From Komarekiella atlantica HA4396-MV6 (GTDB taxonomy: Bacteria; Cyanobacteriota; Cyanobacteriia; Cyanobacteriales; Nostocaceae): 64,000 bases of DNA. The stretch spans positions 124,001 to 188,000 of the forward strand of contig JAHHHK010000008.1 in NCBI GenBank assembly GCA_019359395.1, given 5' to 3'. Each line of letters begins with the position of its first letter. Positions within the stretch are counted from its first letter, which is position 1. Below the pieces are notes generated by a model, which made no database searches, was not told where the DNA came from, and saw only the letters and a program-made list of their open reading frames with translations. Shown here one piece after another: positions 10,119 to 48,802 of this stretch. Made by a program: the position numbers and the translations under genes.

Positions 10119-12905
10119 TTGCGTATGATTAGGCAGTTTGAACCAACCCTACGTGCATTGGAGATAAGATATCCTAAGTTTGGCTCTGCTTATCGCATTG
10201 GAGGCAGACTTGTACTGACTGCTGCCCATCTCCTTGCTGAAGTGGGATCTACCTGTCGCGTTAGGACAAGTCTGAGTTTTGACGAAGTGGAAGCCAAAGT
10301 CGTTTGGAAAGCTTCACAATCAGATATCGCTTTGATTGAACTGCCTGAAATCATTGCCCCCTGTGCAGCAGTCGTATTTGGCCGATTGCCGGAATCCATA
10401 ATGGGAGAAACGCTTGAGTTCGACATGTACGGCTATCCACGATGGGGGTGGACACAAAGCGAAGAAGGGGCAACAGTCGGAGGGCGACATGTTAAAGGTA
10501 CTATCTATCTGTCGGATACCTCACCGGATGACTTATTGGTACTAGAAGCTTTGAGAGTCCCATCCGAAGCTTTGTCTGAATCGGAGTCTGATTGGAAAGG
10601 CAATTCAGGAGCGGCAATCGTCTGTCATGGGCTGGTAATCGCGGTGCAACGACAGCATCAGAATCCGAAACGTCCTGCATCGCTCGAAGCGTCTCCACTG
10701 TGGACAATTTATAGCGATAAGCTATGGTGCAGCTTGTTGACGCAGCATGACATTAATCCAGAGCCTGCGATCGTTCGTGTCCAAAAGCAAACAAAAGAAC
10801 AATCCACAAAAGCTTTCAACCCTCCACAAAAGCCGCCTTACAAGCTTGTTGGTCGCACCGATTTTTTACGTTCCCTTAAAGCAGAACTCTTCAGTGGCAA
10901 CAGCATAGCTCTGAAAGGTCTACCCGGTGTCGGGAAAACAGCGTTACTTTTGGAGTTAGCTTACGAGCCTGATGTGCAGCGGTACTTTAATGGTGGTGTA
11001 CTTTGGGCAAAACTAGGTCGTGATGCCGATGCAATGGCTATCTTGCTTGAATGGATTACAGCACTAGGAATTTCGCAACCCAATAGAAATGAACTGGCTG
11101 GTATTACAACCAGGGAAAAGACTATTGAAATACTAAAGCAGAGAATTCAAGAAAGAATCAATGTTGATAATAACCCATTCCTGTTAGTAATTGACGACGC
11201 TTGGGAATCTGAAACTGCATTAGCTCTCAAACTTGGTTCTACAAACTGTACTTATATTATTACGACTCGTTCTTCCCTGATTGCATTAGATTTTGCAGGA
11301 AAAAGCGTTAAAGAAATAAACGAACTGAGTGAAGATTCAAGCTTAGAGTTGCTGAGACAAATATCAGGACGAATAGTAGAAACCTATCAAGAGAAAGCAA
11401 AACTACTAGCAAAAGCGGTTGGTTATTTGCCACTTGCACTAATCTTAATGGGAAGATATTTACAAAAAGAGTCTGATAGCCGTTCTCCTAATCGGATAGA
11501 AAAAGCACTTAAAAATTTACAGAAAACTGAGATGCGATTGAGACTAGAGCAACCTCAAGTATCGCCAGGTACTAATCCTAGCTTACGAGCAGGTACACCA
11601 TTGTCCTTACTTGCAGTTATTGAGATCAGTTATGAAGCACTAGATGATGAAGCAAAAGTAGCTTTCTGTGCATTATCAATTTTTCCACCCAAGCCGAACT
11701 CCTTCTCAGAGGAAGCAGCTTTAGCAGTAAGCCTAACTCCTGATGTTTCGTTGTATAAGTTATATGATTCCGGGTTGCTGGAGAGTGATGAATCAGGACG
11801 CTACAGGCTGCACCAAACAATTTCTGATTATTCACGAGAAAAATTAATCGATCAATCTGTTTATGAGAGGATGGCTGTTTTCTACGCTGAACATGTTGAA
11901 AGTAATAAAAGAAATTACGACTTGATCGATCAAGAATATATCAACATAGTCGCGTCGCTTGAGGCTGCAAATCAGAAAAAAATGCACTTTATTTCTATAA
12001 GACAAATGAAGGCATTTTATCCGTTTTTAGAAGCTAGAGGTCTGTATGAAAAAGCAGAAAACATTTTAAATGAAATCAAAGAACAGTTTGGGAATCTGGA
12101 TCAAGAGTGCAACCTAACGCAAATTCTTCTAAACTTGGGCAGAGTCAGACACCGACTTGGGAAATATAGTAGATCAAAAGAGGATTTACAAAGAGCAATA
12201 GATCTATCTGAAAAATGCAACGATAGTGAAACAATTATTTATTCTAAATTAAATTTAGGGGTGCTAGAAGAGATACAGGGAGATGATGGAGAAGCAGAAA
12301 GGCTTTACAAAGAGGCTTTAATACTTGCCAAACTAAATGGAAACGATGAAGCAGTAAGTATTGTATGTAGAACTATAGGCTCACTATTGCTCAACTCCAA
12401 AAAATATCTTGAAGCAAAGGGATACTTTGACGATGGATTAGTATCAGCAGAAAAAAATAGAGATGAACAAGTTATTTGTGGGATCTTAATTAATTTAGGA
12501 TGGGTATCAGCTATTTCAGGGAATGTTGAAGATGCAAAAGAATATTATCGAAAGAGTATAACTATAGTTCGCAAACTTAAGCATTACGATTTTGCTACTT
12601 ATGTACGGCAAGGGATGGGAGAAATAGCTAAGCGAAAAGGTGACTACAAGCAGGCAGAATACCATTATAAAAAAGGTCTTGCGCTTGCTAATCGAATTGG
12701 ATTTCATGAGAGGAAGATTATACTGCTTCAAAATTTAAGCTCAGTTTTAACAATTCAACAGAAGTATTTACAAGCTGATAAATGCCTTCGGGAGGCTTTA
12801 TTAATTGCTTCTAATATTGAACATTACGAGTTAGTTGATCACATTATTAAAGACATAGCCAGGCTGCTGAATGCTCAAGATGATTATCAACGAATGGAAG
12901 ATTAA
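10119..12905 (+). CDS. Trypsin-like domain + NB-ARC/STAND NTPase + TPR repeats
   Basis: Trypsin-like N-terminus ('GGRLVLTAAHLL', 'GNSGAAIV'), P-loop 'LKGLPGVGKTALL', 'LLVIDDAW', 'TYIITTRS', 'LPLALILMG', then TPRs. Confidence 0.9.
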   Translation: MRMIRQFEPTLRALEIRYPKFGSAYRIGGRLVLTAAHLLAEVGSTCRVRTSLSFDEVEAKVVWKASQSDIALIELPEIIAPCAAVVFGRLPESIMGETLEFDMYGYPRWGWTQSEEGATVGGRHVKGTIYLSDTSPDDLLVLEALRVPSEALSESESDWKGNSGAAIVCHGLVIAVQRQHQNPKRPASLEASPLWTIYSDKLWCSLLTQHDINPEPAIVRVQKQTKEQSTKAFNPPQKPPYKLVGRTDFLRSLKAELFSGNSIALKGLPGVGKTALLLELAYEPDVQRYFNGGVLWAKLGRDADAMAILLEWITALGISQPNRNELAGITTREKTIEILKQRIQERINVDNNPFLLVIDDAWESETALALKLGSTNCTYIITTRSSLIALDFAGKSVKEINELSEDSSLELLRQISGRIVETYQEKAKLLAKAVGYLPLALILMGRYLQKESDSRSPNRIEKALKNLQKTEMRLRLEQPQVSPGTNPSLRAGTPLSLLAVIEISYEALDDEAKVAFCALSIFPPKPNSFSEEAALAVSLTPDVSLYKLYDSGLLESDESGRYRLHQTISDYSREKLIDQSVYERMAVFYAEHVESNKRNYDLIDQEYINIVASLEAANQKKMHFISIRQMKAFYPFLEARGLYEKAENILNEIKEQFGNLDQECNLTQILLNLGRVRHRLGKYSRSKEDLQRAIDLSEKCNDSETIIYSKLNLGVLEEIQGDDGEAERLYKEALILAKLNGNDEAVSIVCRTIGSLLLNSKKYLEAKGYFDDGLVSAEKNRDEQVICGILINLGWVSAISGNVEDAKEYYRKSITIVRKLKHYDFATYVRQGMGEIAKRKGDYKQAEYHYKKGLALANRIGFHERKIILLQNLSSVLTIQQKYLQADKCLREALLIASNIEHYELVDHIIKDIARLLNAQDDYQRMED

Positions 12906-32891: not shown

Positions 32892-33773
32892 GTGAGCTTA
32901 ACATCCGAACTAAAAAATAGAAATTCGCCTATCAGAAGATGGTTTGACTCTAGACTAAACCAGACAGTTATCAAGATGATTACTAGCCATAACCAGCTAT
33001 TAGAAAATCAAGAAATTATCAGACCAGTTGATGGGGTAGATTTTCCATTAGTAGGAAATGCGATCGCCAAAGCACTTGCCAAGTATTTAGGAAACATCTA
33101 TGAAGACCAAACATGGTTTACTAATTGTCTTGCTCAGGTTGGAGCAAAAGCCCTCAAAATAGAATATGCCTTCGATTATTGCATTACAAATTCAAATTCA
33201 CTTGAAGAAGAAGCTCTAAAGTGTATGCTCTTGGGTGCATTAGAAAATTATGCTCGTAGCCGTAATATTCATGAGATTATTCAACCTTTTCTACAAGGAG
33301 AAAAATCCCTTGAGCTTGAAGCACAATACTTCAAAAAATGGCTTCCTAGTATCCAAGATACATCTCAAGTTATCGGTATTGTACCCCGTACATGGCAAAC
33401 AGTAGCTAATCAAGTAAGTGGGAATATTAACTGCAATGCTTCATACCCTTTAAGTGAATATCTTGGAGGTGCTGATTGCCAGATAATTGCTGGAAATACT
33501 CTTATTGATGTACGAACAACTGCCAAGAAGCGTCCCTTCTCCCTAGAAAATTTTTACCAACAAATTAGTTATGTTCTGCTTGATAGCAATGACACCTATC
33601 GTATCAATCAACTAGTCTGGTTTTACAGCCGTCAACAGTCGGTATTCTTCTATCCCACTAACAAAATATTCCGCGACTTGCAAGCAACAAGGGAAGAATT
33701 TAAGAGAATGATTCTTGATAACTATCTCACAAATAGGCTGGCAGAACAAAACAAGTGTTTATATCTTCCCTAG
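32892..33773 (+). CDS. PD-(D/E)XK-like nuclease-fold protein
   Basis: 'LGGADCQIIAGNTLIDVRTTAKKRPFSLENFYQQISYVLLD'; GTG start. Confidence 0.6.
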   Translation: MSLTSELKNRNSPIRRWFDSRLNQTVIKMITSHNQLLENQEIIRPVDGVDFPLVGNAIAKALAKYLGNIYEDQTWFTNCLAQVGAKALKIEYAFDYCITNSNSLEEEALKCMLLGALENYARSRNIHEIIQPFLQGEKSLELEAQYFKKWLPSIQDTSQVIGIVPRTWQTVANQVSGNINCNASYPLSEYLGGADCQIIAGNTLIDVRTTAKKRPFSLENFYQQISYVLLDSNDTYRINQLVWFYSRQQSVFFYPTNKIFRDLQATREEFKRMILDNYLTNRLAEQNKCLYLP

Positions 33774-33786
33774 TAAGGATAAAAAT

Positions 33787-33960
33787 ATGATTCAAGACTT
33801 TCAACTCAATCCTAGCTTCAATATCCACTTCGATGGTATGAAGTATCACGCCAAGATTCACTTTGATATGCTTTTGAAACTGAAGCAGAAGAAATTCCAG
33901 CAAGTGATATTAGCACTCTTGCTACAAGAGTATCTAACCGTTGGCGGCAGTATCTTCTGA
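33787..33960 (+). CDS. 57-aa small hypothetical protein
   Basis: MIQDFQLNPSFNIHFDGMKYHAKIHFDML..., ATG 13 bp after the preceding stop. Confidence 0.45.
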   Translation: MIQDFQLNPSFNIHFDGMKYHAKIHFDMLLKLKQKKFQQVILALLLQEYLTVGGSIF

Positions 33961-34059
33961 ATATTGCAAATAAATACAGACAGTAATCTACTAGTTAGCC
34001 TTCTCCAAGCAGAGGGTTAACTTAACGAATGTAAATCAAATTTTGCTCGTTTAAATACT

Positions 34060-35454
34060 ATGAAATTAGGTTTCTATCCAGTATTGGGTAAGAGCGATTT
34101 TGTTAGAAGCAAGGGTAAAAAAATCCCAATCTGGCAGTTGCTTGAGTATCAGCCGGTGGGCTGGCTATACTCACTCGCAATCAAGGCAGAAATTGTTCCA
34201 GATAGTCCTATTATTCATGACTGTGGGGCATTTAACTACCGTGACCAAGATATCCCCACTCTAAACGGTAAATATGTTGATGCCCACTGGTCTATTCATA
34301 GATATCGAGAACGCTCAAAGGTCGGCAATATTATTGTTTGTCCCGACCATTTACTTGTTGGAGAAAATATCAGGGAACGGCAAGAATACAACCTTAAACA
34401 AGCAGAAACATTTATCCAACTTGCTAAAAGTTATCTTCCCAACAGAATACCCCTAGCAGTCATCCACGGACAGTCTCTCAGTGAACGCCTCGAAGTAGCA
34501 AAATATCTTTTGGGACTGGGATACCGCCATCTCGGCATCGGTGGGCTTGTTTCCCAGGCAAGAGAGTATTCGATTAACTTACACATTATCAAAACAATAA
34601 CTCAAGTTGTGCGATCGCTAATTGACTCGGAACGAGTATTGCCGAAAGCGGATGCAATGCCTGCGGCGGGCGTAGCCATCGCACCATTGCACGAGCCAAA
34701 TGCTCATCTACACGTTTTTGGATTATGCTCGCCCCAGTATGCCAAAGCTTTTATTCAGATGGGACTATCCTTTGATGGTTCAACTTTTATCCGGGAAGGA
34801 CTAGGCGGTGGGATGTTCGTCAGCCACGAGGAAAAATTAATTCGGATACCAACCCACTGTGCGCCAAAGTGCAACTGTCATGTTTGCAGGGTTCTCAACC
34901 AACATAGGATTGACCCTCGGCTGACAAACAAAGGACGGACGCATACTATGGGAAGAATCGCCCACAACCTCAATCTGGTGATCAGCACCTACAGAAAGTT
35001 CACTCCCAAGGAAAAAATTTACCTGGTTGCTGGATGTGGCAAGCAGCTTACCTACCCTGCTGCCGCCAAAGACTTATATTATTCCCAGCACTTTCAAGCG
35101 TGCCGTCGCTACGTAGAAGAAGAAGAGTCAAGATGGTATATCCTGTCACCCTTACATCAAGTTCTTAACCCGGAAGCAATCATCAAGCCCTACGATAAAT
35201 CCCCGTATACCTTATCTCATCAGGAACGCATACTATGGGCACGACAAGTAGCAGAAAGCCTCATACAAGTTGCGTCCCCAGAAATAGAGTTTGTATTCTT
35301 GACAGGCAAGCTTTACAGACAGGAGGTAACGCCCATTTTACAAGCAAACGGATACGAGACAAAAGTACCAATGCAGCACCTAGCCATTGGACAGCAACTT
35401 GCCTGGATAAAGAAGGAACTGGAGCAAGAAAAACAGCTTGTTTTAGATATATAA
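34060..35454 (+). CDS. TGT-like transglycosylase fused to a DUF6884-like domain
   Basis: 'IIHDCGAFNYR', 'GYRHLGIGGLV', 'GLSFDGSTFIREG', Zn motif 'CNCHVC...H', then 'YLVAGCGKQ...KDLYYSQHFQACRRYVE...WYILSPLHQVLNPEAIIKPYD'. Confidence 0.75.
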   Translation: MKLGFYPVLGKSDFVRSKGKKIPIWQLLEYQPVGWLYSLAIKAEIVPDSPIIHDCGAFNYRDQDIPTLNGKYVDAHWSIHRYRERSKVGNIIVCPDHLLVGENIRERQEYNLKQAETFIQLAKSYLPNRIPLAVIHGQSLSERLEVAKYLLGLGYRHLGIGGLVSQAREYSINLHIIKTITQVVRSLIDSERVLPKADAMPAAGVAIAPLHEPNAHLHVFGLCSPQYAKAFIQMGLSFDGSTFIREGLGGGMFVSHEEKLIRIPTHCAPKCNCHVCRVLNQHRIDPRLTNKGRTHTMGRIAHNLNLVISTYRKFTPKEKIYLVAGCGKQLTYPAAAKDLYYSQHFQACRRYVEEEESRWYILSPLHQVLNPEAIIKPYDKSPYTLSHQERILWARQVAESLIQVASPEIEFVFLTGKLYRQEVTPILQANGYETKVPMQHLAIGQQLAWIKKELEQEKQLVLDI

Positions 35455-35482
35455 CCCAGCAGTAATGGCACCAAAATGATTT

Positions 35483-36325
35483 ATGGAGACTACAAAACGA
35501 GTAATTAATATAAGTGAAAAATTCGGTAGCTGGATTGTACTAAATAAACAAGGAAAGCAAGTATTATGCCAGTGTGATTGTGGAACCCAAAAACTTGTCT
35601 ACAGTCACACCCTTACCAATGGTCGGTCAACTAATTGCGGTTGTAAAAAAAGAAAAGAATCCATCCCAGTTGGGGCAAACTTTGGGAGACTAAAAGTTAT
35701 ATCAGATGTAGAAGTTAAGGGGAAAAGGGGTGAATTACTACTCCTTACCCTATGCAGCTGCGGAACCCAAAAGTATATCAGTAAAAATAGCCTAAAAAGA
35801 GGGCTTACACAAAGCTGCGGATGCTTGCAGCGCGAAACCCTCAAGAGCGATAAAACTGTCCACGGTCACTGCAAAAGCCACGAGTATAATTCCTGGTTGC
35901 ACATCAAGCGGATCTGCTATAACAAGAACCACCATCAGTACAAGTATCATGGCGGGTGCGGAATTGAAGTTGATGCATCCTGGCGCGATAACTTTACCCA
36001 GTTCTTAAAAGATATGGGAGTAGCACCCGAAGGAACAGTCATAGCACGTATTGATCTAGAGAGTGACTTTGCTCCCGGAAATTGTCAATGGATACCCAGA
36101 AAAGAGCATTACCGTCAAATACATTTCTTAAGAAGAAAAGAATTCTTCATTTCTCAAACTTTACCCAAACCAGTTGTTACAAATTGTGAGATTAATGTTT
36201 CACCAAATATTATTCGCGCAATTGTCAAAGCTCATGCAAATGGTGAAGCCAATATGAATAAACTTGCTACACAATATCAAATTAGCACTCAAGACGCAAT
36301 AAATATTATCCTTCACCACGCTTAA
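35483..36325 (+). CDS. Cys-rich HNH/AP2-type phage-like endonuclease
   Basis: Repeated 'CxCG...S.NCGC' modules then 'HGHCKSHEYNSWLHIKRICYNKNHHQYKYHGGCGIEVDASWRDNFTQFLKDMG...ARIDLESDFAPGNCQW'. Confidence 0.75.
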   Translation: METTKRVINISEKFGSWIVLNKQGKQVLCQCDCGTQKLVYSHTLTNGRSTNCGCKKRKESIPVGANFGRLKVISDVEVKGKRGELLLLTLCSCGTQKYISKNSLKRGLTQSCGCLQRETLKSDKTVHGHCKSHEYNSWLHIKRICYNKNHHQYKYHGGCGIEVDASWRDNFTQFLKDMGVAPEGTVIARIDLESDFAPGNCQWIPRKEHYRQIHFLRRKEFFISQTLPKPVVTNCEINVSPNIIRAIVKAHANGEANMNKLATQYQISTQDAINIILHHA

Positions 36326-39669: not shown

Positions 39670-42600
39670 TTACAAAATTTTGCGAGAGCGAATAAGATGC
39701 TCTCGAAGGTAGTACGCTCTTGATGAAGCAGTCTCGACAATTGTATTAAGCAATACAAAACAAGATTCATGCATACTTCTTGGCAAAGATCCAGTTTGCT
39801 CAAGCTGTAGAAAACGCTGAATCGCTCTTTCTAAGTAGAACGCAGTATTCACTCCTAAGAGCAAACGAGTTCCACCCTCCTCCTTTTGATGTTTTGAGAG
39901 GATATGTACCCCTAATTCAAAGAAAATTGAAGGGAAATGATACATAAGTGAGGCTAATGCTTCAAACACGTCTGAATTCTTTCCAGCATTCGTGACAAAC
40001 TCAAGCAGTAAGTCTTTGCCAAGTGCAATATCCTGAGTTTCATAATCAACCTTCTGCCAAGGCGTATCAGCATGTAACATGCTGCGAATTAATTTTCGTC
40101 TGTTATCCTGTTGCCTATAGTCGGAGTCATTACCAGAAAACTCAATAGCTATCTTTTGCATCTTCTGCGATAACTCTTTCCATAGCTGCCAGTAAATTTC
40201 TTTCTTATTTGCCCTTTCAGCAACCATAGCCACCTGTAGCATTAAAAAATTCATAAAATTAGGTGCTATCTCACAACCCATTTGCAAATGTTCAAGATAG
40301 GGTTGAAAGTTTGAATCGTACAAATAAAACAAATATTTAGCGAAACGTTCTGTGAAACTCAGTCGGATATTATAGTTTATTTCTAGATATTCTTCTTTTT
40401 CAGAACTATGCCTATTTTCTTGTTGCTCAACTTCAAAGAATAAAGTCAGCATTTTCGACAACAATTTGATATGGCTGGGTTCTAGTGAGCCATTTGGAAT
40501 CATCAGGCAAGGGCTTAAAATATGCCATGAACTATGCGAAATAAGAGTAATTTGTTCAAGGGCAGTCGAAATATCACCTCGTGTAAATCGAACGCGAAAC
40601 TCATCTTTTTGTGCTTTTCTATTAGCTAATTCAGCTTTTTTAGCATCGCTTTCTAGGAAAGATATTTGGCTTATTGTATGCTGATTATCTTGCTTACACC
40701 AGGCATATTCAAGTGTTCCGATAATGCATTTTTGAGCAAATTCACTATCTCTTTGCCAAAGATGTTTTCTAATACCATCTGCGGCTTTTTGTCTAACATT
40801 TTCGTTAGCATGTGTTAACGCAGTCACAATTAAACCCTTAACAATAAGCTTCTCATTTTCTTCAGAGGCAAAGTCTAGTAGAATTGGAAGAACAGATGCG
40901 GCGGCGGCTGCACCATCATGATCTGTTGCATCTGCAATTGCAATTGAATTGTCTGTATCTGCATTTGCCCCAACTGTTTGACCAATTAGCTCGGCACACC
41001 ACAAAATATCTTCTTCATTTAGTTCACCCGAATAATCTCGTACAAAAATAGCAGCAGCAGTAACAATAGCACCAAAATACATTGCTGCCAGCTCGCTTAC
41101 TGCACCTGCCTTAAGTTCTTCAAAAATCTCTTTCGTCTCAGCAAAAGCTTTACGCCACGTCGCGTAGTATTCAGTCTCTAGTGGCTTGTATTCAAAGGTT
41201 TTGCTTGCCCACAGATATAGCGCAGAGAAGCGATTTTGTACCTGCATCCTTTCTTGAGCTTGTTGCTGAATATCCTTTAATTCAGGTTCCAAACCTTCAG
41301 GCTCAAAAATAATTCTGTTGTTCTCTTTATCTTCGATAGGTTTCCAACCACGACTGTCAATCCTATGTAAAAGGAACCGCATCGTTTCATCTTGAAGTTC
41401 AAATGCACGCAGCACATCAATAGCAGCAAGCGCTTCATCTCTCCATTCGGAAAACTGAAGGCGCACAACCAGCGTTTCTAAATGCTCTCTTCGCCACGGA
41501 CGCAGTGCAGCAGTACGTCTTTCTTCCGAATAGAGTTTAGATAGCGCATTTCTTTGATAGCCAGAACTATGCAAATCAATTTCATTGCCTCCCTCCTCAT
41601 GAATCATCCGACTCCGATCCATGTGATATAGTTCGGGATTTCTTAAAAGTGGTAGCGCAGCTTTCCCAACTTTTTCAGGAAATCCCATTGCTACAGAAGC
41701 TAACACTGCTGTAGGCATTACAGAGTTACTATTTCGCAAAATATAGTCAAACAGCCACTCTATCTGGTCTGATGTACAAGATTCTGTATATGCAATGAGA
41801 AAGTTTTCAAGTGCCATCAAGGCACACTGTAGTAGATATGGAACATTAGAAAGTCCACGGTATGCTGACCAAAAATCACCAGAATAATGATATACTTTTT
41901 TCCCATTATTTAACCGAATCGTCAATGGTTCAAACACCGATTCTGATAATTCTCGTGAGATCGACGAATATCCTTGTGATAAATACAACTCAGGGTGAGT
42001 ATATTCTTCTACTGCTCTGTTCAGCAGTTTCAAAATAAAATCCAAGCCTTTTTTTGGATGGAAACGTAAAAGGTGTTGGAATGGTCCCTTAGAGCCACTA
42101 GCTGGGAAAAAATTGTTTTTGTATTCGTGAAGACCAAAGTGTTGAGCTACTCCTAAATCACGCCTATATCTAGGCTGATCTTTATCCTCGATTTCTTCAA
42201 TGAACCATTCAAACCAAGCTAGTTTAATTAATCTATTTGGAGCATATTTGCAGAAGAAAGCTGATTCAATGCCCTCAAAAGACATGTTGCAAAAGTCTTT
42301 TATATAAGATAGTCTATGGCTTGTACTTCGGTAAACAAGAACATCTATCTCCAAAAGCTCTATAAATTCTTTACGAATTGCTGGAATAGTTTTTATAATG
42401 ATACTAAGTAGTTTTTTTCTATCATCATCATCTCTGTATGACTCTTTAATTCCAGCTAACAGATGAAGGGCTAGTAACCCTGCTTCACAGGCTGGCACTA
42501 ATAATTCCTTATCCAGGTGGAGTAAAGACGACCAGTCATTTAGGATTGCTGTTACATGTGATGTTAAAGCTTCTGATAAAAGTTCTCTATTTTCAAACAG

Positions 42601-44787
42601 AAAACAGATGATGGCTTTCCATCCTTGACCATAAGGCTTAAGAAACAAAGCATCAACCAAAGTCTTTTCATCATTTTCTTTTGGTCTTAAAGTTAACGTT
42701 TGATCTGGAGTTTGACATGCTATTCGGAGAATGAAACAGAAACGTTTAAGAAGCTCTCCATTTTCTAAAAAAAGTTGATCCTTTAACAATCTGAGAAATT
42801 CGTCTGGATTATCACCTTGAAGTACAGCAGCAATAGTTTCATCTTGCCAGTATCTCTGGATGTCTTGACTGCTAAGAACAGAGCGTACAAATTCTCCAAC
42901 TTTCTCTCGATACCTTAGTTTTTGGTGAAGCCATAAGCGAAAAGCCCGATTTATAGAAGGTTCATGACCTATTGCATCAAGAAAATTCTGTGTATTGCCT
43001 GAGTGTCTCCGATAAGCATCATCAATGTATTGATCGAGCGCCCAATCCTCTAGAACGTCGTGTGCTGGGCTAACGAGACCATTCTTGGAATCGCGACGAA
43101 CTAAATTATCCTCTTCAAGCTTGAGTACAACATCGCCATCAAACTCAGTCTCTGGAACTCCATAAACCATTTGCTTGGCGCGATTAATTGCGATACCTAC
43201 AAAGACTTGCCTACGCTTAAGCGGCATCCCGTTTGCTCTCACTTGTTCCTTTGCAATCACATCTCGCCAAACTGCGGTGCGAAACTCCTTTTCACCATCT
43301 TTAGGCGCAAACTCTGTTCCGGCTTGAAGAACTCTATATGCTAAATCCGCAAAAAAGGGAGATTTCAACAACAGCTTTAAAGTTGAATTATCAGCAATTT
43401 TTTGTAATGGTTCAAGTTGTTCACACAGATTCTGAACTTGGTCATTACTAAAACCACTTAATGTAAGCGTTGTAAAGTTAATCCCAAAAGGTTGAAGATA
43501 GTGAAAAGTTATTAGTTGATATGCGTAATCACGACCGGTAGCAATCACAGTCCAACCTTGCTGTTTTTTCAGTAAATGAAGCAAATCTCTGAACGCTGTC
43601 GTTTTTTCTAACTCAAGAAGCTTTTCTAACGATTCGATAATCAAGTATTTTTTTGGCATTAAAGCGAAACCTGCTTCTAAATCGCGAAGCGAACCTCTTA
43701 AGCCCATTGCTGAAAACACATTATCGAGGTGGGCTTGATCCAGATCCTCTGTGCGTAAACAGAAGATAGGGGCGCGTTCGCTTATATAGTCTGAGAATTC
43801 TCGTATTAGACTAGACTTTCCAGCACCGCGTTCACCAGACACAAAAACAAAACTGGAGGTTTCAATAAAGCTGAGTAATTGAGCAAATGTATCTGATTGC
43901 TTAATGTGAATTCCACCAACAGTAGTTCTTATACCACCTAAAATGTAATTACCATGCTCCTTAAGCTTATTGACATCTGATGACCAACTAGAAGAATTAA
44001 CGGTATTAAATGCATTCCGAATATCTTCGGGCAAAGTTTTTAAAGTGAGTGTTCCTGCGTTCTGGTTAGCAGTTTGAACAGCATCAACAACTCTCGTCCA
44101 CAATGATGGCGCAGCTTGATTTGAATATTGAGCAATCAGGGAGTGAAGCAAAGACAATGTACTTCCTGATTCTGTATCTAAATCGTAGCCAATGATATGA
44201 AAAACTTTTAAGAACTCCCATAACTGCCTGTCAGAAACATCAGTTTCGTTATTTGCAGTCTTCAAATGTGTTTTGAACGCTTCTAGCTTTTTTCTTTTTG
44301 CATCACTACTAAAATTAGCAGTATTAATTTTTATGAGAAATTCTTCTTCATTTTCAGCGTGCCTTGCCCATTCAAGAATAGGTCTTACATCGTTTATGTC
44401 AGTTGCGCTTAAAAGACCTGTAATAAGAGCGAGGGCATCAGTGTTGGAATCAAAACTTTCGTCATTAAAATCATTCCAGGTACTTTGAATTACTTCAGCA
44501 AAGGTTGCATCCTTTCCCGTTATACTAATGTCATGTTTTATTTGAGCCAGCAGCTTTGCTTCTTTCTCTGTTTCTAACTGTTTCGAGATTACAATAAAAT
44601 CATCAGTATTAAAGCCAGCGTAACGTCCTTGTAGCTTGATCTTCGTGATTGGAAAAGGTGCTAGACAGGGCGCAAGCCGACCTGAAAGCATAAGAACAGT
44701 GAATGCTGCTTGAACTCGCGTTTCAAAGTTCGATCCACCACCACCAGTAGAAAAAGGGTTACTTTGTTGCTTTGCTGCCTCAGTCAT
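39670..44787 (-). CDS. Avs-like STAND NTPase with putative Cap4-type nuclease N-terminus
   Basis: 1705 aa; N-term 'STGGGGSNFETRVQAAF...GRYAGFNTDDFIVI...LLAQIKHDISIT', Walker A 'VFVSGERGAGKSSLI', 'TVIATGRDY', HEAT-like C-terminal half. Confidence 0.85.
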   Translation of the reverse strand: MTEAAKQQSNPFSTGGGGSNFETRVQAAFTVLMLSGRLAPCLAPFPITKIKLQGRYAGFNTDDFIVISKQLETEKEAKLLAQIKHDISITGKDATFAEVIQSTWNDFNDESFDSNTDALALITGLLSATDINDVRPILEWARHAENEEEFLIKINTANFSSDAKRKKLEAFKTHLKTANNETDVSDRQLWEFLKVFHIIGYDLDTESGSTLSLLHSLIAQYSNQAAPSLWTRVVDAVQTANQNAGTLTLKTLPEDIRNAFNTVNSSSWSSDVNKLKEHGNYILGGIRTTVGGIHIKQSDTFAQLLSFIETSSFVFVSGERGAGKSSLIREFSDYISERAPIFCLRTEDLDQAHLDNVFSAMGLRGSLRDLEAGFALMPKKYLIIESLEKLLELEKTTAFRDLLHLLKKQQGWTVIATGRDYAYQLITFHYLQPFGINFTTLTLSGFSNDQVQNLCEQLEPLQKIADNSTLKLLLKSPFFADLAYRVLQAGTEFAPKDGEKEFRTAVWRDVIAKEQVRANGMPLKRRQVFVGIAINRAKQMVYGVPETEFDGDVVLKLEEDNLVRRDSKNGLVSPAHDVLEDWALDQYIDDAYRRHSGNTQNFLDAIGHEPSINRAFRLWLHQKLRYREKVGEFVRSVLSSQDIQRYWQDETIAAVLQGDNPDEFLRLLKDQLFLENGELLKRFCFILRIACQTPDQTLTLRPKENDEKTLVDALFLKPYGQGWKAIICFLFENRELLSEALTSHVTAILNDWSSLLHLDKELLVPACEAGLLALHLLAGIKESYRDDDDRKKLLSIIIKTIPAIRKEFIELLEIDVLVYRSTSHRLSYIKDFCNMSFEGIESAFFCKYAPNRLIKLAWFEWFIEEIEDKDQPRYRRDLGVAQHFGLHEYKNNFFPASGSKGPFQHLLRFHPKKGLDFILKLLNRAVEEYTHPELYLSQGYSSISRELSESVFEPLTIRLNNGKKVYHYSGDFWSAYRGLSNVPYLLQCALMALENFLIAYTESCTSDQIEWLFDYILRNSNSVMPTAVLASVAMGFPEKVGKAALPLLRNPELYHMDRSRMIHEEGGNEIDLHSSGYQRNALSKLYSEERRTAALRPWRREHLETLVVRLQFSEWRDEALAAIDVLRAFELQDETMRFLLHRIDSRGWKPIEDKENNRIIFEPEGLEPELKDIQQQAQERMQVQNRFSALYLWASKTFEYKPLETEYYATWRKAFAETKEIFEELKAGAVSELAAMYFGAIVTAAAIFVRDYSGELNEEDILWCAELIGQTVGANADTDNSIAIADATDHDGAAAAASVLPILLDFASEENEKLIVKGLIVTALTHANENVRQKAADGIRKHLWQRDSEFAQKCIIGTLEYAWCKQDNQHTISQISFLESDAKKAELANRKAQKDEFRVRFTRGDISTALEQITLISHSSWHILSPCLMIPNGSLEPSHIKLLSKMLTLFFEVEQQENRHSSEKEEYLEINYNIRLSFTERFAKYLFYLYDSNFQPYLEHLQMGCEIAPNFMNFLMLQVAMVAERANKKEIYWQLWKELSQKMQKIAIEFSGNDSDYRQQDNRRKLIRSMLHADTPWQKVDYETQDIALGKDLLLEFVTNAGKNSDVFEALASLMYHFPSIFFELGVHILSKHQKEEGGTRLLLGVNTAFYLERAIQRFLQLEQTGSLPRSMHESCFVLLNTIVETASSRAYYLREHLIRSRKIL

Positions 44788-46081: not shown

Positions 46082-48802
46082 ATGAACCAGCCTGAATGGT
46101 TAGAAGCAAATAAACAGGTTTATTCCAAAGAACATGGTGTTATCCATATCGCCGCCATCATCGAGAAAAACCTTTACTTTAAAAAAGGAAGTTTAAATCA
46201 AATTATTTTCGACTGGGAGCATGAAGTAAAAAGCGGTAATTTATTACCTCTTAACCAAGCACCAACAGGTAAAAGTATTCTCTACCAAGAGATAGCTGCT
46301 ATTCTTGACGGTTCAGGAAAATTACAAAGCTGCAATATAATTCCTGCTCAAAAAGCTAAACTTTATCCGATACCAGATGATATTCACCCTCTAGTAAGAA
46401 ATGCCTTAAGTAAGTCAGGAATTACCCAACTATATTCTCATCAAGTCGAGGCATGGGAGGCTTACAAAAAAGGTGAAGATATCATTCTCCAAACTCCTAC
46501 CAGCAGTGGTAAAAGTATCTCTTTTTTAATTCCAATCGTTCACGAGTGCCTAAAGGGTAAATCAGCTTTAGTATTCTTTAATTTGAAAGCACTTGCATTT
46601 GACCAGGTAGAGAAAATACGTTCGTTTGTTAGTCACCTGGATGAAGAAATTCGCCCACAAATTCTCAATATTAATGGGGATATTCCGCCTCAAGAGCGCA
46701 AACAACTCTACAGCAATCAACCCTCAATTTTATGCGTAACACCCGATGTGTGGAACCACGAACTTAACAACTATCAATTTGACTCAAACTGGGGATTTAG
46801 AGAAACAATTAGAAAACTTTCTATCATAGTCTGTGACGAAATGCATTTTTATCAAGGCATATTTGGCTCGCATTTCGCACTACTTAATCGGCGAACTCAA
46901 TTCATGATAGAATCTGCTGGCAATGATATTTCTAAATTACAGTATATATTCGCTTCTGCAACAATTAGTAACAGTAGTGAAATTGCCCAAAAGATATCCA
47001 ATCGAGTAGAACAAAGCAACCTTGCTGTTATTGACGAAAGTGGGGCAAAACGCTCGGAGATTACTTTCCTTAGCCTCAAAGCACGAAACAATACTCTTTA
47101 CCAAACTGCCCAAGTTGCAGCGATGCTCGTAAGTAAAGGAATAGTCGGAATTTGTTTCTGCGATAGTAGAGAACTGGTAAAGGTTTTAACTAATGCCATT
47201 CGTAAAGCTTTAGTGGAGATGCAACTGCCCCACATGGGAGAAACCATCTCAGCATTTTATGGCAGCATGAAGGCAAATCAGCGTAACAAAATTATTGCAA
47301 ATATACAGGGTGGAAAGGTCAAGTTCATTATATCCACGAGTGCTTTAGAAGCGGGTCTGGATATCGGGTCTATTGATGCAACTATCGTACATAGTTACCC
47401 AGGTTCAATTCTTGCCTTTCGCCAAAGGGCGGGACGTGCGGGGAGGCAGGAAGCAGGGCTATTGGTGTTTATTCCGTCGAAAAGGTCGATTATGGATTCT
47501 TACTACGCCAATCATCCAGAACGTCTCCTATCTGATCCTCCAGAAATTATCAACTTTAACCACAATTATGAAACAACTTTGGAGCAACACATTCTCGCCT
47601 GTTGCAAAGAAAGTAAACCGACACAAGCTCAAATTGCTCGACATTTTGGTAGTTCTGGGGATGCGATCGCCCGACAATTAATCGGTGATAATCAACTGAT
47701 TTTCAGTTACAATCAAAGACTGACAACTAATCGAAACCTCGGTTATGTCCACTCAAAAATTAAATTCAGAGGCAACACTGACCAAAACATCAGTTATATC
47801 AATCAAGATAGCGCGGAAGACTTTGAGGAAAGTTCGGCATCTTCTGCACTAAGAGAAGTTTACCCTGGTGCAATATATCTTGCTCAAGACTTTGATGGCA
47901 ACCCCGTACAGTATAAATCACAAGAGCTAAATTTAATTGAAGGGAAAGCAATTCTTAAGCCAATTGAGGCAACTAACTTATTTAGTCGTCCCGAAGGAAG
48001 CCTAAATTTCGAGGAAATCAAAATTGTAGGGGAAGCCAAAATTATCAATCTTTCTCAAGGGGCAGCTAGATTTACACCTGTTTCAGCCAAAATCAAAGAA
48101 GAAATTTACGGGTACAACTTGTACAGGCTGGAACAAAAATGGACTTGCACTAATAACAGATGTCGCAACTTCAATTTAAATTTACCCGGACACATACAAA
48201 CTTGTCCTGCTTGCAATACCCAACTTATTGAACGAGAATTTGTCGAACTATTGGAGGAAAATAAATACAAGGAAGCATTTGCTCTTAATTACAATACATT
48301 CTGCGTTAGGGTTGAAATTAACGCTGATGCAAGAAAATATTTTTCAGCCATCGTCAAAAATCTCCGAAAAGAGATACTCAACAAACAGAAATATATTTCC
48401 AATGAAGATAAACAACTATTTGAAAGCAATGAAACTCAGATTTGCGTTCATACTCTCGCGCACCAACTTATGCTCAGTTTACCACTTGTCGAACATGGAG
48501 CAAACAGTCGAGATATCGATTTCATGTTAATCGAAGTACCATCAAATTATAAGATAGTAGGCTATTTCTTCGATACGTGCGAACATGGTACAGGTATGTG
48601 CGATACTCTCATCAAGTATTTAGAAACTGCTTTTATTAAGGCAAAGTTTCTAGTAGATAATTGCCCTTGCAAATACGGCTGCTCATCTTGTACAACAATT
48701 CAACGCTGCCCTGATGATAACAAAGCACTGTTTAAATCAGTTGGGCTATCTCTACTGGAGGAAATAATCAATCCGACACAAACAAGAACCATTAATCAAT
48801 AA
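46082..48802 (+). CDS. DEAD-box helicase with DUF1998/MZB C-terminus (YprA/MrfA-like)
   Basis: 'LQTPTSSGKSISFLIPI', 'DEMHFYQG', 'SALEAGLDIGSID', 'RQRAGRAGR', C-term 'CPCKYGCSSCTTIQRCPDDN'. Confidence 0.9.
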   Translation: MNQPEWLEANKQVYSKEHGVIHIAAIIEKNLYFKKGSLNQIIFDWEHEVKSGNLLPLNQAPTGKSILYQEIAAILDGSGKLQSCNIIPAQKAKLYPIPDDIHPLVRNALSKSGITQLYSHQVEAWEAYKKGEDIILQTPTSSGKSISFLIPIVHECLKGKSALVFFNLKALAFDQVEKIRSFVSHLDEEIRPQILNINGDIPPQERKQLYSNQPSILCVTPDVWNHELNNYQFDSNWGFRETIRKLSIIVCDEMHFYQGIFGSHFALLNRRTQFMIESAGNDISKLQYIFASATISNSSEIAQKISNRVEQSNLAVIDESGAKRSEITFLSLKARNNTLYQTAQVAAMLVSKGIVGICFCDSRELVKVLTNAIRKALVEMQLPHMGETISAFYGSMKANQRNKIIANIQGGKVKFIISTSALEAGLDIGSIDATIVHSYPGSILAFRQRAGRAGRQEAGLLVFIPSKRSIMDSYYANHPERLLSDPPEIINFNHNYETTLEQHILACCKESKPTQAQIARHFGSSGDAIARQLIGDNQLIFSYNQRLTTNRNLGYVHSKIKFRGNTDQNISYINQDSAEDFEESSASSALREVYPGAIYLAQDFDGNPVQYKSQELNLIEGKAILKPIEATNLFSRPEGSLNFEEIKIVGEAKIINLSQGAARFTPVSAKIKEEIYGYNLYRLEQKWTCTNNRCRNFNLNLPGHIQTCPACNTQLIEREFVELLEENKYKEAFALNYNTFCVRVEINADARKYFSAIVKNLRKEILNKQKYISNEDKQLFESNETQICVHTLAHQLMLSLPLVEHGANSRDIDFMLIEVPSNYKIVGYFFDTCEHGTGMCDTLIKYLETAFIKAKFLVDNCPCKYGCSSCTTIQRCPDDNKALFKSVGLSLLEEIINPTQTRTINQ

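Follow-up and report, generated by a model that had tools for sequence, protein, structure and literature searches.

Within the 64,000-nucleotide stretch of Komarekiella atlantica HA4396-MV6 DNA analyzed here (the window), a plasmid-borne gene at 34060-35454 encodes a protein whose most fitting description is a divergent DpdA-like DNA-guanine transglycosylase with a non-canonical DUF6884 domain. We consider it probable that the protein is a stand-alone, plasmid-encoded enzyme divergent from DpdA that incorporates preQ0 into DNA, with the DUF6884 part serving as a non-catalytic half for DNA binding or presentation. The features of the locus are as follows.

34060-35454, + strand: fusion gene, a 464-aa ORF with a TGT/DpdA-like domain followed by a DUF6884 domain
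34060-35010, + strand: DpdA-like transglycosylase domain, residues 1-317 (PADLOC DpdA, 7ui4, HHalign)
34219-34233, + strand: DCGAF motif, with D54 at the position of the general acid/base Asp in TGTs (DSGGF)
34345-34350, + strand: D96-H97, aligned with S-x-D-H of DpdA and the Asp of FDEC in tRNA TGTs; D96 invariant
34618-34692, + strand: repeat insert, residues 187-211, unconserved and in-frame; ortholog length varies in 24-base steps
34774-34776, + strand: D239, aligned with the nucleophile Asp of TGTs (SFDGS)
34870-34965, + strand: zinc site C271-x-C273-x2-C276 ... H302-N-L, invariant in 11 orthologs and in diverged TGT-only relatives
35017-35415, + strand: DUF6884 domain (DpdC/YaaA-related fold), residues 320-452, PF21818 E = 3e-41
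35032-35046, + strand: GCGKQ at the place of the family motif CxxxK; signature Cys and Lys replaced, invariant in 11 orthologs
35143-35160, + strand: LSPLHQ at the place of the family motif LSAxxG; signature lost, invariant in 11 orthologs
35483-36325, + strand: HNH endonuclease-like ORF directly downstream (phrog_374, E = 1e-49), a syntenic neighbor outside the proposed mechanism

The first-pass annotation had placed a plasmid-borne ORF at this locus. The ORF was confirmed in position and length, and homology assigned the replicon to a plasmid of the MOBP/MPF_T type, as pCC7120beta. Orthologs with 86-97% identity were found on more than 12 plasmids or contigs of Nostocales (Nostoc, Tolypothrix, Trichormus, Calothrix, Fischerella, and others), and they are plasmid-borne wherever the replicon type is known; one of them, WP_010993871, is carried by the plasmid pCC7120beta in Nostoc sp. 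PCC 7120, a model strain. They have in common type IV secretion genes before the fusion gene and an HNH gene after it. The dN/dS values of 0.08-0.33 in the two TGT parts and 0.11-0.18 in the DUF6884 part revealed purifying selection on both domains. These values, well below 1, together with the high identity of the orthologs indicate that the fusion gene is functional. For the insert comprising residues 187-211, a dN/dS of ~1 was obtained in divergent comparisons. This insert, and the same place in the orthologs, is rich in GGCGGGCGT.../GCCATCGC units, and most ortholog lengths step by eight codons (464, 472, 480, and 488 aa). It resembles cyanobacterial small dispersed repeats placed within a coding region.

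The TGT-like character of the N-terminal part, which had been proposed from motifs, was substantiated by matches to PADLOC DpdA (E = 8e-16), to the solved DNA-guanine transglycosylase 7ui4 (E = 4.6e-8), and to NCBIfam DpdA NF041059 (E = 8e-15, residues 48-184); the score for NF041059, a strict equivalog model, was 54.6 bits, far below its curated cut-off of 200 bits. The Pfam TGT model PF01702 gave no match in the window protein. The motifs DCGAF (residues 54-58), GLSFDGS (235-241), and CNCHVC (271-276) quoted in the first-pass annotation are all present, and the zinc-ligand His is H302 within AHNLN. The GG loop (G161-G162) is likewise present. Every alignable catalytic or zinc position (D54, D96, GG161-162, D239, C271/C273/C276/H302) is kept and invariant across 11 orthologs; A57 of the DCGAF motif is replaced by Ser in most orthologs of the alignment. 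Relatives with 34-48% identity keep all TGT-type residues except H97. A structure predicted with 11 close orthologs had a mean pLDDT of 38.8.

Profile-profile comparison by HHalign clearly separated the two possible affiliations, with the subfamily profile matching DpdA at E = 3e-24 (99.6%) versus tRNA TGT at E = 6e-5 (65.6%). Against the PDB, the same profile matched 7ui4 at E = 3e-16 and a tRNA TGT at 0.0014. The phylogeny with DpdA proteins and tRNA TGTs that had been suggested as a check was run, and the tRNA TGTs, including the one of the host itself, were split from the window protein with supports of 100/99 and 100/100. Clustering inside the canonical tRNA TGTs was thus not observed. 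TGT-only proteins encoded on Chroococcidiopsis plasmids joined the window protein with supports of 97/93 and 95/92, and a looser group, supported at 94/95 in the first tree, also took in further plasmid proteins and one protein from Deinococcus. Phylogeny, profile-profile comparison, and PDB matches therefore agree with the earlier DpdA-like assignment: the protein clusters with DpdA in the broad sense, outside the tRNA TGTs, and carries the residues of that group, and the missing PF01702 match and the place outside the clade speak against a tRNA-guanine transglycosylase.

The C-terminal half had been assigned to DUF6884, and it indeed matched PF21818 over profile positions 1-135 of 135 with 141.2 bits (gathering cut-off 30); this was the sole Pfam match, and it lies in the C-terminal part. 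The CGKQ stretch that had been read as a DUF6884 pattern stands at the position of the CxxxK motif, but its residues do not match that motif. In the same alignment columns, the window protein and its orthologs have GxxxQ instead of CxxxK and LSPxxQ instead of LSAxxG, while 10 stand-alone DUF6884 proteins and the DpdC halves of six fusion proteins have both CxxxK and (L/I/V)SAxxG intact, the first residue varying conservatively. Stand-alone DpdCs were left out of the motif alignment for this point because of their poor N-terminal alignment. The PYD and GQQLAW parts of DUF6884 are retained in the window protein, and Cys326 lies one residue off the expected position of the signature Cys. The signature loss is fixed in 11 full-length orthologs, and dN/dS there is still 0.11-0.18. 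The simplest reading of these sequences is that the domain would have been kept for binding and its chemistry lost. CxxxK and LSAxxG have been described as conserved, possibly catalytic DUF6884 motifs in a YaaA-like DNA-binding fold (PMC11701544). On this family description in the Pfam paper rests the view that the domain most likely serves as a DNA-binding module.

According to a genome-mining preprint, the DpdC domain is DUF6884 (PMC11888242). The conversion of dPreQ0 to dADG is carried out by DpdC (PMC12839542, PMC6884629). DpdC proteins of Dpd clusters gave weak DUF6884 matches, and HHalign of the DUF6884 set against the DpdC set gave E = 8e-11. The window protein itself cannot be counted as a DpdC, showing no PADLOC DpdC match and replaced CxxxK and (L/I)SAxxG motifs; its DUF6884 half is closer to stand-alone DUF6884 (PADLOC PDC-M57A) than to DpdC. 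The first-pass interpretation thus stands in its DpdA-like assignment but had missed the relation of DUF6884 to DpdC, the lost DUF6884 signature, and the reverse-order fusions of Dpd clusters. The latter are proteins of approximately 650-735 residues with a DUF6884/DpdC-like front and a TGT behind, several of them labeled DpdA, and they occur in Nostoc NIES-3756, Paenibacillus (sp. 37), Deinococcus (taeanensis), and other cyanobacteria. Given these fusions and the DpdC-DUF6884 relation, the window fusion pairs two domains known from one pathway, in reverse order.

On a plasmid of Deinococcus taeanensis, the DUF6884-TGT fusion lies beside dpdE-, dpdF-, and dpdH-type genes, of which DpdE and DpdF were confirmed by PADLOC. 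The best non-self matches of its TGT half among plasmids were members of the cyanobacterial plasmid family described here (4e-14), and the best annotated DpdA followed at 2e-6. In an AU test, holding the Deinococcus fusion with canonical DpdA gave p = 0.066, and this alternative was not rejected; its tree placement is supported but not settled. Compact Dpd-like clusters were observed on a Nostoc NIES-3756 plasmid (L030:7840-16357) and in Deinococcus taeanensis (L028:2324-18897), each holding a DpdC-DpdA fusion, a second TGT/DpdA-like protein, and helicases.

The DpdA of Salmonella Montevideo needs DpdB. A later paper notes that some clusters may do without DpdB (PMC12839542). Among the larger window ORFs tested, neither dpdB nor clear dpd restriction genes (dpdD-dpdK) were found; the DEAD helicase at 46082 gave weak generic DpdF/DpdJ matches that were weaker than its BrxHI and SngC matches, and the only DndB-family match in the host genome was weak and on another contig (C59). 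Judged by these larger ORFs, the window locus is not a Dpd restriction system.

The diverged TGT-only relatives have no DUF6884 on their own plasmid or, in one case, in their genome. The Gloeothece relative adjoins an ArdC antirestriction gene and polymerase III subunits, those of Chroococcidiopsis adjoin PcfJ, ssb, and ParA/ParB, and in another Nostocales genome the relative lies by ORFs resembling polymerase III delta-prime, ssb, and ParA/ParB, as named from sequence only. The window plasmid has the same sort of replication genes (PrimPol, DnaN, DnaX, DUF5895), and in Sphingopyxis a stand-alone DUF6884 gene was found near an antirestriction gene and KleE/ParA/ParB. This setting of ArdC, ssb, ParAB, and polymerase III genes suggests a role in anti-restriction, self-marking, or plasmid maintenance, unlike a defense island of the Dpd type.

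The order of upstream ORF, fusion gene, and HNH gene is fixed in all complete loci. The 293-aa ORF constantly found upstream (32892-33773) shows a faint PD-(D/E)XK resemblance (GADCQII...GNTLIDVRTT; PADLOC RTasPDDEXK, E = 0.002) and otherwise belongs to an unnamed family. The small ORF at 33715-33960 seems frameshifted near 33865 in comparison with the 66-aa version of its orthologs. In seven related plasmids or contigs (L018-L024), the slot matching window positions 33961-35482 is occupied by a near-identical 506-aa TnpB-like gene with a Cas12f1-like TNB domain, and the fusion gene is reduced to its final 20-26 codons; in an eighth plasmid (L015), the DUF6884 part alone survives as an ORF. 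The fusion gene is accordingly not essential to the plasmid, its neighbors are independent of it, and any benefit that it confers would be conditional.

Other readings of the protein were weighed against these data. It is unlikely that a one-polypeptide DpdA-DpdC enzyme is present, in which the transglycosylase half inserts preQ0 and the DUF6884 half hydrolyzes the nitrile to give dADG with the shifted Cys326 or different residues doing the chemistry. In its favor, the two domain types, DpdC-like and DpdA-like, occur fused in other cyanobacteria as well as in Dpd-type clusters of Nostoc NIES-3756, Paenibacillus, and Deinococcus, a dN/dS of 0.11-0.18 shows conservation of the DUF6884 half, and a Cys is present one residue off the expected place; however, both signature motifs are replaced in all orthologs, yet intact in the other aligned DUF6884 proteins and in the DpdC halves of the fusions, and the domain is nearer to PADLOC PDC-M57A than to DpdC, the models of which do not match. 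Slightly less credit is due to a tRNA-modifying or otherwise RNA-directed TGT paralog. Its place outside the tRNA TGT clade, the weak match to the tRNA TGT profile, and closest relatives that are plasmid genes and a Dpd-cluster protein all outweigh the TGT fold, zinc site, and HNL motif that the protein has in common with tRNA TGTs. The host genome moreover encodes one canonical tRNA TGT, in addition to one clear QueC and a QueF; tRNA modification is already provided for by this enzyme, and another of its kind would be superfluous.

The fixed synteny, the weak nuclease-type match of the upstream ORF (E = 0.002), and the strong HNH match of the downstream ORF could be taken to mean that the protein acts as the modifier in a compact restriction-modification module whose cutting half is formed by the ORFs at 32892-33773 and 35483-36325. 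The eight related plasmids that retain both neighbors with the transglycosylase half mostly or wholly gone make this improbable: in an obligate pair, a nuclease would not be expected to persist once the modification that protects against it is gone, and such natural deletions suggest that loss of the transglycosylase is harmless while both neighbors are retained. The diverged relatives, in addition, lack these neighbors. More improbable still, in our view, is a function in DNA repair or base exchange in which damaged guanines are the substrate and DUF6884 recognizes the lesions. The Bacillus subtilis DUF6884 protein YfjM was found among the interactors of abasic and RNA-base lesions (PMC11701544), but no neighboring gene of the window protein points to repair, and its transglycosylase half resembles preQ0-installing enzymes.

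Returning to the preferred reading of a stand-alone DNA-guanine transglycosylase, the first half would put preQ0 in place of selected guanines in DNA, most likely that of the plasmid, using D239 as Asp nucleophile and D54 as Asp acid/base. The preQ0 would be supplied by the host queuosine pathway and, considering the host genes for QueC, QueF, and tRNA TGT, is probably available. The DUF6884 half would descend from a DpdC/YaaA-like fold, with the presumed catalytic Cys/Lys and LSAxxG gone, and most likely serves to bind DNA or to present the base that is targeted. The loss of the signature residues argues against dADG as product, and dPreQ0 would be expected instead. The plasmid would likely benefit by escaping restriction while it is transferred by conjugation or becomes established, or by marking itself.

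More tentatively, we suggest that a conjugative cyanobacterial plasmid family may mark its own DNA with a 7-deazaguanine by means of one enzyme, a decayed DpdC-type domain acting as DNA-targeting module. If true, this would be the plasmid counterpart of the evasion of restriction by base replacement in phages. Modification of DNA with 7-deazaguanines is already known from phages and Dpd islands, and with a compact single-gene version on conjugative plasmids it would reach into plasmid biology. Such a single-gene modifier could help to explain how conjugative plasmids cross restriction barriers in cyanobacteria. Through the fusion, deazaguanine chemistry is also connected with DUF6884, an uncharacterized family that occurs on plasmids and phages.

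The same plasmid carries other possible defense genes. A 1705-aa ORF on the minus strand (39670-44787), lying among plasmid genes, gave a strong match to the antiphage protein Avs4 (PADLOC Avs4, E = 3.5e-187; NF041815 704 bits, below the 1500-bit cut-off). Further candidates are an AIPR-family protein related to abortive infection (791-2011) and an NB-ARC/TPR protein (10119-12905).

Compared with known systems, the window protein has in common with DpdA (NF041059, 7ui4) the TGT fold, DCGAF, the D-H motif, GG, the nucleophile Asp, and C-x-C-x2-C...H, but its identity is about 25% over part of the sequence, and it is about 100 residues shorter, lacks the long DpdA insert ahead of the zinc site, and is encoded without dpdB or dpdC alongside. 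The DpdA of Enterobacteria phage 9g (317 aa) resembles it in length and stand-alone use, but is very distant and unstable in its tree position. Bacterial tRNA Tgt (PF01702) belongs to the same superfamily with common zinc ligands and catalytic Asp positions, but forms a separate clade, and the host has its own Tgt. Profile comparison shows homology between DpdC and the DUF6884 half; DpdC is longer, however, and its profiles do not match the window protein, which is devoid of the signature residues. Stand-alone DUF6884 proteins (B. subtilis YfjM, PADLOC candidate PDC-M57A) show full-length likeness to this half with common PYD and GQQLAW parts, but the window DUF6884 differs from them in its replaced CxxxK and LSAxxG motifs and in its fusion to a transglycosylase. 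The DpdC-DpdA fusions of Dpd clusters likewise join these two fold types in a single polypeptide, but in reversed order with DUF6884/DpdC first and with CxxxK and (L/I)SAxxG intact, and those examined adjoin dpd, helicase, or preQ0-synthesis genes.
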